Shown here one piece after another: positions 12,501 through 21,500 of a DNA stretch of 64,000 nucleotides (positions within the stretch are counted from its first letter, which is position 1; every line of letters begins with the position of its first letter). Below the pieces are notes generated by a model that saw only the letters and a program-made list of their open reading frames with translations, did not search any database and was not told the DNA's origin. The translations under genes and the position numbers were made by a program. The stretch comes from Lytechinus variegatus (lineage: Eukaryota; Echinodermata; Echinoidea; Temnopleuroida; Toxopneustidae): positions 21,776,425 through 21,840,424 of the forward strand of contig NC_054751.1 of the NCBI RefSeq assembly GCF_018143015.1, read 5' to 3'.

Positions 12501-15500
12501 TAGAATTTAGCTAATAAAAGTGATTTGAAGATATCTTTTACCCTTTTTAACTTGTTTCCTTGCCCAAAACACTTCGAATAGAGCCATTGCGCTCCACCCC
12601 ACTCCCCCACACACTGAAGCCATCGTGATGATATTTGCTTTACACTGATCTGTGATTTTCATGAAATGGCTTGTGCTTGATTTTAATTTTGTTAATCATT
12701 GTCAAGCTTGGAAAAAGTGGAGAAACAAGTATTAAATGATGAATGAAATATAAACCCACTTTAAGTGCTAAAAACTTAGTGAAAAACTGCTGGAGATGTC
12801 TGATATAAGCTTTTGTTTAGATTAAGTTATGTCCTCAGATCCACCTGGCACAAAAGGGGTGAAGGTTGTGCTAAGTACATGTTAAATTTATAATTTTGTT
12901 GGCAAATTGTCACAACATGTTTGCATGTATACGTTTTTTTCAACTGACTCAATGTGAAAGGGAAATGTACGAGAAATGTTTCGCAAAGTAAGTTTGACTT
13001 CGCCTTTTCCCCTTGGCACAGCGTGAAAACGAGCAAATCTGCGCAGATTTCTGCGAGCTTTACAAAAATGAACAGTGCTCACTCAAGTGTAACATTCTGT
13101 CAATTTTTTTATTTTCATTGGATAGATGAGACCCAAACCGAAGGGTATATGTAGAAAAATGACCCACATGTTGAATATATTTTAATTCCCAGAGCTTTTT
13201 CAAAGTGTAAACTTTTTTTTGATACGCACTGTATAATGTTAACAAACCAAGCTATAATAAAACGTTTCCGTAAAATACGTCTGGCCCAACAAAATAATTG
13301 TTCTTGCCAATACACCATAATGTACATGTTCGTAGACATCTCAGTGCTAAAAAGCATGGGCCTATAAGCATGGGCGCATTGAACATATAATTAGATATAT
13401 ATACACAGCTATATAAAGTTTTACAATGGTGCTAACAGAATGATGAAGACCCATAATACCGAGCAGGTATGGAAGCTTAAAAGCGCCACCGAGATGTTGA
13501 GATAATTATCTCGGGAAGTCGACATCTTGATAGCAAAAGATAAGATGACGAGATCTTGGATCTCATCATGTCGACATCTTTTAGAAGAGATGATGAGATG
13601 ACAAGATCCTGGATCTCATCATGTCAACATCTTTTAGAAGAGATGTTGAGATGACAAGATCCCGGATCTCATCATGTTGACATCTTTAAGAAGAGATGAT
13701 GAGATGACAAGATCCTGGATCTCATCATGTTGACATCTTTTGGAAGAGATGATGAGATGACAAGATCCCGGATCTCATCATGTTGACATCTTGTAGAAGA
13801 GATGATGAGATGACAAGATCCTGGATCTCATCATGTCAACATCTTTTAGAAGAGATGTTGAGATGACAAGATCCCGGATCTCATCATGTTGACATCTTGT
13901 AGAAGAGATGATGAGATGACAAGGGCCTGGATCTCATCATGTTGACATCTTTTGGAAGAGATGATGAGATGACAAGATCCCGGATCTCATCATGTTGACA
14001 TCTTGTAGAAGAGATGATGAGATGACAAGATCCTGGATCTCATCATGTTGACATCTTGTAGAAGAGATGATGAGATGACAAGATCCTGGATCTCATCATG
14101 TTGACATCTTTTAGAAGAGATGATGAGATGACAAGATCCCGGATCTCATCATGTCAACATCTTTAGAAGAGATGTTGAGATGACAAGATCCCGGATCTCA
14201 TCATGTTGACATCTTGTAGAAGAGATGATGAGATGACAAGGGCCTGGATCTCATCATGTTGACATCTTTTGGAAAAGATGATGAGATGACAAGATCCCGG
14301 ATCTCATCATGTTGACATCTTTTAGAAGAGATGATGAGATGACAAGATCCCGGATCTCATCATGTCGACATCTTTAGAAGAGATGATGAGATGACAAGAT
14401 CCCGGATCTCGTCATGACGACATCTTTTAGAAGAGATGATGAGATGACAAGATCCCGGATCTCGTCATGTCGACATCTTTTAGATGAGATAATCTGACAA
14501 GATGCTTGCACCTGCACGCATTAACACCGACAGGAATTTGGTTGATATTCGATTTTCGATATTCAAACTGTGAAGTTGGTTCGATATTCAAACGCGTGTG
14601 AATTTGGTTAATTTTCGATATTAAAAATTAGGGGCTTTCAAAGCTAAATAGGGGGTTTAACAGGTGCAGCACATCTCGGGCAACCATAAATACACTGGCT
14701 TGCCCTATTACGAGGACATTTAGGGGACAAGGTCAGTGAATAAAAGGGCATGAAATTTTTAATTTTTGATTTTTTTTCGAGGGACCCCTAGAGATATCCC
14801 GACGGCTTAGCCAGGGTAACCACGAGATAATTATCTCGGGAAGTCGACATCTTGATAGCAAAAGATAAGATGACGAGATCTTGGATCTCATCATGTCGAC
14901 ATCTTTTAGAAGAGATGATGAGATGACAAGATCCCGGATCTCATCATGTCAACATCTTTTAGAAGAGATGTTGAGATGACAAGATCCCGGATCTCATCAT
15001 GTTGACATCTTTAAGAAGAGATGATGAGATGACAAGATCCTGGATCTCATCATGTTGACATCTTTTGGAAGAGATGATGAGATGACAAGATCCCGGATCT
15101 CATCATGTTGACATCTTGTAGAAGAGATGATGAGATGACAAGATCCTGGATCTCATCATGTCAACATCTTTTAGAAGAGATGTTGAGATGACAAGATCCC
15201 GGATCTCATCATGTTGACATCTTGTAGAAGAGATGATGAGATGACAAGGGCCTGGATCTCATCATGTTGACATCTTTTGGAAGAGATGATGAGATGACAA
15301 GATCCCGGATCTCATCATGTTGACATCTTGTAGAAGAGATGATGAGATGACAAGATCCTGGATCTCATCATGTTGACATCTTGTAGAAGAGATGATGAGA
15401 TGACAAGATCCCGGATCTCATCATGTTGACATCTTGTAGAAGAGATGATGAGATGACAAGATCCCGGCTCTCGTCATGACGACATCTTTTAGAAGAGATG

Positions 15501-18500: not shown

Positions 18501-21500
18501 TCTAGGGGTCCCTCGAAAAAAAAATCAAAAATTAAAAATTTCATGCCCTTTTATTCACTGACCTTGTCCCCTAAATGTCCTCGTAATAGGGCAAGCCAGT
18601 GTATTTATGGTTGCCCGAGATGTGCTGCACCTGTTAAACCCCCTATTTAGCTTTGAAAGCCCCTAATTTTTAATATCGAAAATTAACCAAATTCACACGC
18701 GTTTGAATATCGAACCAACTTCACAGTTTGAATATCGAAAATCGAATATCAACCAAATTCCTGTCGGTGTTAATGCGTGCAGGTGCAAGCATCTTGTCAG
18801 ATTATCTCATCTAAAAGATGTCGACATGACGAGATCCGGGATCTTGTCATCTCATCATCTCTTCTAAAAGATGTCGTCATGACGAGATCCGGGATCTTGT
18901 CATCTCATCATCTCTTCTAAAAGATGTCAACATGATGAGATCCGGGATCTTGTCATCTCATCATCTCTTCTAAAGATGTCGACATGATGAGATCCGGGAT
19001 CTTGTCATCTCATCATCTCTTCTAAAAGATGTCAACATGATGAGATCCGGGATCTTGTCATCTCATCATCTTTTCCAAAAGATGTCAACATGATGAGATC
19101 CAGGCCCTTGTCATCTCATCATCTCTTCTACAAGATGTCAACATGATGAGATCCGGGATCTTGTCATCTCAACATCTCTTCTAAAGATGTTGACATGATG
19201 AGATCCGGGATCTTGTCATCTCATCATCTCTTCTAAAAGATGTCAACATGATGAGATCCAGGATCTTGTCATCTCATCATCTCTTCTACAAGATGTCAAC
19301 ATGATGAGATCCAGGATCTTGTCATCTCATCATCTCTTCTACAAGATGTCAACATGATGAGATCCGGGATCTTGTCATCTCATCATCTCTTCCAAAAGAT
19401 GTCAACATGATGAGATCCAGGATCTTGTCATCTCATCATCTCTTCTAAAAGATGTCAACATGATGAGATCCGGGATCTTGTCATCTCATCATCTCTTCTA
19501 AAAGATGTCAACATGATGAGATCCGGGATCTTGTCATCTCATCATCTCTTCTACAAGATGTCAACATGATGAGATCCGGGATCTTGTCATCTCATCATCT
19601 CTTCTAAAAGATGTCAACGTGATGAGATCCAGGATCTTGTCATCTCATCATCTCTTCTACAAGATGTCAACATGATGAGATCCAGGATCTTGTCATCTCA
19701 TCATCTCTTCTACAAGATGTCAACATGATGAGATCCGGGATCTTGTCATCTCATCATCTCTTCCAAAAGATGTCAACATGATGAGATCCAGGATCTTGTC
19801 ATCTCATCATCTCTTCTAAAAGATGTCAACATGATGAGATCTGGGATCTTGTCATCTCAACATCTCTTCTAAAAGATGTTGACATGATGAGATCCGGGAT
19901 CTTGTCATCTCATCATCTCTTCTAAAAGATGTCAACATGATGAGATCCAGGATCTTGTCATCTCATCATCTCTTCTACAAGATGTCAACATGATGAGATC
20001 CAGGATCTTGTCATCTCATCATCTCTTCTACAAGATGTCAACATGATGAGATCCGGGATCTTGTCATCTCATCATCTCTTCCAAAAGATGTCAACATGAT
20101 GAGATCCAAGATCTTGTCATCTCATCATCTCTTCTAAAAGATGTCAACATGATGAGATCCAGGATCTTGTCATCTCAACATCTCTTCTAAAAGATGTTGA
20201 CATGATGAGATCCGGGATCTTGTCATCTCATCATCTCTTCTAAAAGATGTTGACATGATGAGATCCAGGATCTCGTCATCTTAACTTTTGCTATCAAGAT
20301 GTCGACTTCCCGAGATAATTATCTCTACATCTCGGTGGCACTTTTAAGCTTCCATAAGCAGGTAATCTGTAGTCTATTATCACATTCGGCTTTAAATGCC
20401 ACATACCACACCCCTAATCCTCTTCTCGGAAATCAGTCTCATCTCCCCCCCCCCCCCTATGGTCCATCCCTGCTCCATCTATTTTCTATGACCGCGCTTG
20501 CCCGTTCTATCTCTGATCGTCCAATATTCTACCGTTTACGAACCTGAGATTGAACTTCGCCCCTACAAGGTACGTCCGGTCATCGTTTGGCATTCCAAGT
20601 GCCATGTCAATGACAGGAAGAGGACTTCCCAGAGCCAGCCTATCTGAAAAGTCAAGACAGAGGACAATTGGCAGTGACATTGGTGGTGAAATTGGTCCAA
20701 GCAGTATAGGGGAGGGGGGATGGTGATCACAATAATGTTCTTTTCAGTGACAAAACTGATATCTACTTAAAAACATTATTATTTCTTCACATCATTTATT
20801 TTTTCCAATGCTCCCTTCAATACGAACGATTTAATTGTCTGCACATATTAATTTAAACAAATCTGAAAGCTTGCCAAACATCATCCATGTAAATATACAT
20901 GTATAAAAATTGGATTCTATGTTGCAGTTCATCCATTACAAACAGATTAAAAGAATATCTCGTTCACTTGAGTATAAATCGAACCTTTAGGCCCGTATTC
21001 TGAAGTCAGGTTTAACTTAAACTCAGGTTTAAAGTTGTGGTTTAAGTATGGGAAGCCAAAAGTATCAATTTATTAAGTTGTACGTTTCTTATGTTTGCTG
21101 TGCTCTTTCCTGATTCATCGATTAGTCAGGCAGCATATGTCATGATTTACCGGCTACTTCGACACTTTTATGTGATTTGTGACATCACAAGGAACAACTT
21201 TCAACTTGGTGACAAATTTCTAATGGTCATCTTGACCATGTAAGGGGTCAAAATGTGGTCAATAGGGGTCAACTTTTGGAATTGCCCCGATTGTGTCGAG
21301 TTATACATCAAATTGTTTGTCTGGTTATACTGAACAAAAAAGTGTACACAATCATATACTCTTGACCTCCCGTTAAAAAGTTATGACCGGAAATAGCAAA
21401 AGGTCAACAAACTTTCGTTTCTGTAACAATGTAACATTGTATATGGCAAATTACACTGAAGGTGTTAAGAAAGCTATTTTCCGGGGGGTTTGTTCTTCCT

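Follow-up and report, generated by a model that had tools for sequence, protein, structure and literature searches.

The 64,000-nucleotide window analysed here (Lytechinus variegatus, contig NC_054751.1, positions 21,776,425 to 21,840,424; C12:21776425-21840424 in our genome search) contains a complete foldback-like transposable element of 6889 bp, in which array-built inverted arms surround a core (window positions 13468-20356). Its status as a foldback-structured transposon is nearly certain. We assign it, with a probability of roughly 0.75, to a foldback-structured, non-autonomous family of cut-and-paste DNA transposons that would belong, by its ends only, to the IS3EU (IS3EU/GingerRoot) superfamily and would be mobilised in trans. 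The first-pass annotation of this DNA, made from the letters alone, had already recognised a complete foldback-like element at 13470-20356; the element and its right end are confirmed, and its left end lies 2 bp further out, at 13468.

The outer ends at 13468 and 20356 form a perfect inverted repeat across their first 16 bp, both termini of the window copy follow the form TATGG..CCATA, and the end sequence of the family is TATGGAAGCTTAAAAG. A 53-bp period was detected in opposite orientation at 13539-15555 and 18804-20281, in agreement with the 53-bp arrays first described in both arms, and the longest complementary arm pair measures 955 nt (97% complementary). Long inverted repeats of tandem units around a variable middle, the feature of the foldback-like class, are present. 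Since the array at 14824-15555 repeats the start of the arm, array and spacer have been duplicated in the left arm; the pair occurs twice there and once in the right arm. There are no stop-to-stop open reading frames (ORFs) of at least 120 aa inside the core (about 16400-18180), in line with the initial reading of a core without recognisable transposase, and a 154-aa ORF that overlaps the left edge of the core (16205-16669) has no Pfam match at E 0.01. A search of the window for RNA families and tRNAs found none.

To place the element in a family, we searched the genome (869.6 Mb, 33 contigs) with its 30-bp end and found 1663 matches with up to 3 mismatches, 830 forward and 833 reverse. The reversed-pattern control gave 0 matches in either direction, which excludes a chance origin of these ends. 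We read 40 regions chosen from 100 zero-mismatch end matches listed, all on C1, and the copies read are therefore a biased sample. Facing ends were present in 29 of the 40 regions (30 pairs, two of them in region L014), with one unpaired end in each of the other 11; together with the window copy, this yields 31 end pairs, 27 of them short (435-1893 bp). For 25 of the 31 pairs (L013, both L014 pairs, L034, L041 and L040 were left out) we carried out a palindrome comparison, in which 22 of 22 short copies aligned end to end with their own reverse complement (76-95% identity); no spacer or core match was found in these 22. The long copies (window, L017 and L045) carry the core. The family consists of two structural classes, namely core-bearing copies and short all-array palindromes without a core, and unit numbers vary between arms and between copies. 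A core search (40 of 2011 candidates scored, 61 rows) returned at least 22 rows, counting that of the window copy itself, that span the full 1781 positions at 96-100% identity, and this sequence likeness suggests that the family spread recently. The 53-bp unit, again with up to 3 mismatches, has 10191 matches in the genome (reversed control 0). Among 100 unit matches listed, which form 14 clusters on C1, each unit lies no more than 770 bp from a listed end, so the unit is not a free satellite in the part seen.

Within the groups L029/L032/L033, L030/L031 and L038/L040, flanking DNA is shared beside the same end, and duplication of host DNA, instead of transposition, probably multiplied some of these copies. 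In two single-ended regions, L036 and L042, similarity to the family ends after 89 and 41 bp; these look truncated, and each holds one ORF longer than 120 aa (142 and 149 aa).

Further evidence for transposition comes from target-site duplications and empty sites. The 8-bp direct repeat first noted at this insertion, AGCAGGTA, is literally present (13462-13469 and 20357-20364), but the target-site duplication comprises only the 6 bp AGCAGG: on the left, the final TA of AGCAGGTA forms the first two bases of the terminal repeat, and on the right it belongs to host DNA. An exact 6-bp duplication lies directly outside TATGG..CCATA in 27 of the 31 end pairs, compared with 0.92 exact matches on average for shuffled partners. 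The flanks of L038 and L040 are the same, and the two probably represent a single insertion within duplicated DNA, which makes the independent count 26/30. Among the 26 distinct 6-bp duplications, the middle positions 3-4 are rich in A/T (44/52 bases), with no further visible consensus.

The empty site mentioned in the first-pass annotation was confirmed; it lies in the window, with a single AGCAGG at 361-366. The right flank of the element is 87% identical to window positions 361-744, part of the left flank is 77% identical to positions 119-338, and the joined flanks align across the single AGCAGG to positions 297-473 (79%); the last 100 bp of the left flank occur at two places in the genome, the element itself and this empty paralogue. 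Two further empty sites carry a single copy of the duplication: the joined flanks of the outer copy in L014 match uninterrupted L044 (97%), and those of L019 match uninterrupted L007 (92%). At L014:101-2322, one copy has inserted into a 53-bp unit of another and is flanked by a 6-bp duplication of its own, TCTTGT, which means that the family inserts into itself; the joined flanks of the inner copy in L014 are 100% identical to L021 over 120 bp, another empty site with a single copy of the duplication. For L022 and L048, small gaps at the junction in the related sequence keep the site from being shown precisely.

The ends can be read as IS3EU-type because TATGG..CCATA and the 6-bp duplication agree with published IS3EU features. 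According to PMC10045372, the termini of complete IS3EU families are always TA..TA and the duplications usually 6 bp; for fungal TET-bearing IS3EU elements, 6-bp duplications, terminal inverted repeats (TIRs) longer than 30 bp and TAYGG..CCRTA ends are described (PMC12730594). The mobiliser, which the first-pass annotation had called unclear, is narrowed by this fit to the IS3EU superfamily, although the transposase itself was not found.

Several observations weigh against this assignment, and we gather them here. The 6-bp rule has exceptions, with a 7-bp duplication in 1 of the 31 pairs (L011) and no exact duplication in 3 (L013, L034 and L041); in L034 (L034:101-902), the right end is changed to CATG and the direct repeat is 10 bp long but imperfect (9/10). 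The length is shared with other superfamilies, being 6-7 bp in Dada, 6 bp in hAT6 (PMC12730594) and 6 bp in Polinton, according to the descriptions found. Folding of a single 53-bp unit is no better than that of its shuffles (z -0.96), which leaves a hairpin role for the unit unsupported. No transposase-bearing copy was found among the copies examined, most of the family being unread. Genome searches with the end and the spacer did find relatives of the element, none of which carried a transposase among those examined.

These searches took several forms. A pattern of the first 14 bp of the end with three excluded positions gave 25 matches (reversed control 3) and no clear candidate: several of them belong to the family but have a short deletion in the end, and the others are distinct from it. 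Within 20 kb, this pattern gave a single facing pair, C1:9073411/9074022, which spans 0.6 kb and was rejected as too short for a transposase gene. An inner-end pattern with three excluded positions behind it gave 78 matches (reversed control 0), likewise with no clear candidate; by eye, 72 of the 78 continue into array-like sequence, and the other 6 differ and lie singly. Facing pairs from this pattern at C17:24136196/24138657 (2.5 kb) and C19:3859406/3860216 (0.8 kb) have an array-like start. The spacer-block search, with 40 of 478 candidates scored, returned at least 41 matches, two of them outliers. Both outliers were rejected as autonomous copies. C12:24230915/24239036 is a core copy into which a long interspersed nuclear element of about 5.5 kb has inserted (L053:973-6143, with a CCHC zinc-knuckle ORF, an endonuclease and a reverse transcriptase), and C12:33341127 is a core copy interrupted by other repeats as far as read (2 kb, comprising the inner repeat, another repeat, the first part of the core and another repeat).

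We also searched for candidate enzymes. The Pfam model rva_4 has 35 matches in the genome in about 16 clusters (68 candidates, all scored) and none in 14 control genomes. Clustered matches, partly in open frames, lie at C6:29.44-32.18 Mb, C2:79.84-79.85 Mb and C4:62.18 Mb, and may represent tandem IS3EU-like gene copies or old elements. The best match (L049) also resembles rve (E 1.5e-4), IS481 (E 2.6e-4) and IS3 (E 0.033), all below the cut-offs of these models, a profile that fits what an IS3EU-type integrase could look like; the equation of rva_4 with IS3EU is one that we infer. Four of the roughly 16 clusters were read (L049-L052) with flanks of about 4 kb (1.3 to 5 kb for L052), so a larger element around an rva_4 gene would be missed. 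In these four regions, the first 16 bp of the end gave 6 weak hits (up to 4 mismatches), all of them isolated and never as a facing pair, and no rva_4 gene there is enclosed by TAYGG..CCRTA ends flanked by a 6-bp duplication. The IS481 family model gave 65 matches in the genome, and the 44 of these in open frames longer than 1000 aa are taken for retrotransposon polyproteins.

If the IS3EU assignment is correct, an IS3EU-type integrase/transposase whose gene lies elsewhere or has been lost from the assembly would most likely bind the terminal repeat and, by analogy with Galileo, would probably also bind sites repeated in the 53-bp arrays. The enzyme would then excise the element and insert it at a cut with a 6-bp stagger. 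In cis, the ends and arrays appear to suffice, since core-bearing and all-array copies share both the ends and the duplication length. Unequal exchange or slippage within the arrays could account both for the variation in unit number and for the doubling of the array-spacer module in the left arm. A more elaborate proposal, which we regard as unlikely, is that about 800 elements (1663 ends halved) form a foldback IS3EU family without an autonomous partner, reduced to ends and 53-bp arrays. A scarce IS3EU-like integrase, perhaps from a low-copy rva_4 gene that lies in no element, would have captured them in trans, and the arrays, as multiplied binding sites, would outcompete the source element.

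Polinton termini are AG, at odds with the ends seen here, and another superfamily with 6-bp duplications (Dada, hAT6 or Polinton) is an unlikely source in spite of the matching length. The descriptions found do not tie any of the three to TATGG..CCATA ends, and many Dada families are described as targeting multicopy RNA genes, whereas the 26 distinct duplications here share only their A/T-rich middle. Improbable, too, is a sea urchin TU element or a Mutator-type foldback, to which tandem-repeat arms, a modular plan and a non-coding core would be suited. Most foldbacks have been attributed to Mutator, with exceptions, and Tetris was placed there on its duplication length of 8-10 bp together with views on other foldbacks (PMC4079207). 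Exact duplications of 8-10 bp occur in 0 of our 31 pairs, against 27 with exactly 6 bp, L034 alone having its imperfect 10-bp repeat. The TU label of the first-pass annotation is not supported, the duplication being 6 bp, not 8, and the unit 53 bp.

P and Galileo elements make duplications of 7-8 bp, compared with 6 bp in 27/31 and 7 bp in 1/31 pairs here, and we consider a P-superfamily foldback like Galileo, with the arrays as THAP-domain binding sites, very unlikely. Its appeal lies in architecture, as Galileo, one of the foldbacks outside Mutator, is described as a foldback-like P element whose internally repetitive TIRs hold multiple transposase-binding sites (PMC3688188). Finally, a local inverted duplication or satellite-derived structure with no transposon at all, which arms made of tandem arrays might suggest and which an absence of other copies with these ends had been expected to reveal, is refuted by the 1663 dispersed ends, the 6-bp duplications, the empty sites and, among the 100 unit matches listed, the closeness of every unit to an end.

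Table 1. Parts of the foldback-like element and its empty site, in window positions
Feature	Position	Strand	Remarks
Paralogous empty site	119..744	+	element-free; single AGCAGG at 361-366
Target-site duplication AGCAGG, left copy	13462..13467	.	from end pairing and flank alignment
Left terminal inverted repeat	13468..13538	+	begins TATGGAAGCTTAAAAGCGCCACCGAGATGT; runs to first array unit
Left arm outer array, 53-bp unit	13539..14497	+	inner boundary approximate
Left-arm spacer block, first copy	14498..14818	+	boundaries approximate
Second 53-bp array	14824..15555	+	repeats the start of the arm
Second spacer, then inner repeat	15556..16390	+	about 2.9 copies of a 194-bp inner repeat
Core	about 16400..18180	.	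no recognisable coding sequence
Right-arm spacer block	18475..18796	-	C12:21794899-21795220
Right arm array, 53-bp unit	18804..20281	-	about 28 copies
Right terminal inverted repeat	20282..20356	-	finishes in CTTTTAAGCTTCCATA
Target-site duplication AGCAGG, right copy	20357..20362	.	

Elsewhere in the window, inverted arrays of the 16-bp unit CCGATAGACCGCGGGT and its reverse complement lie 6.6 kb apart at 33591-33757 and 40314-40432 (about 93% complementary). This array pair (33591-40432) is a candidate second foldback, with a unit size nearer to that of TU elements. A small element of about 0.4 kb at 56814-57223 has inverted, diverged arrays of the 16-bp type (TTCGTAATTCCGAAGG and its complement), and an inverted pair of degenerate repeats of about 16 bp (ATTTCGTCTAATAACC type) spans about 0.65 kb at 59589-60248. 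An ORF at 59211-59573 matches Enolase_C barely above the cut-off (22.2 vs 21.5 bits) and is perhaps an exon of a host gene.

In the papers searched, we found no link between IS3EU and foldback elements, and the family may be in Repbase; in PMC8268682, the one paper among them with both terms, the two occur unlinked, IS3EU as entries in a satellite table and foldback in a cited title. For many foldbacks with long array-built arms, the mobilising enzyme is not known. If the ends are read correctly, foldback architecture arose also in IS3EU, for which kinship with IS481/IS3 transposases is reported, and this would speak for foldbacks having originated independently in different transposon lineages. 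The family itself offers a large, apparently young and naturally varied set of ends and arrays for tests of how arm arrays bear on transposase recruitment.

Among known systems, the TU elements of Strongylocentrotus purpuratus share with this family an array-built outer arm, an inner domain and a non-coding middle, and they differ in their repeat units of about 15 bp and 8-bp duplications, against 53 bp and 6 bp here. Galileo of Drosophila differs in superfamily and in duplication length. It is alike in its long, internally repetitive inverted repeats, and several transposase-binding sites within the repeats are a plausible shared principle, by analogy with what is described for Galileo (PMC3688188). 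Tetris of Drosophila virilis likewise has TIRs with tandem repeats and a variable middle without apparent coding capacity, and its description reports no autonomous copy and a smaller relative with common ends, DAIBAM; it differs in its 8-10 bp duplications, its repeats of about 220 bp and its 3 structurally complete copies, compared with 1663 ends here (PMC4079207). IS3EU elements differ in that the family copies read lack a transposase and have arms of 53-bp arrays, which are absent from the IS3EU descriptions in the relevant passages of PMC10045372 and PMC12730594; the family shares with them TA..TA termini in the TAYGG..CCRTA form, 6-bp duplications and terminal inverted repeats longer than 30 bp.

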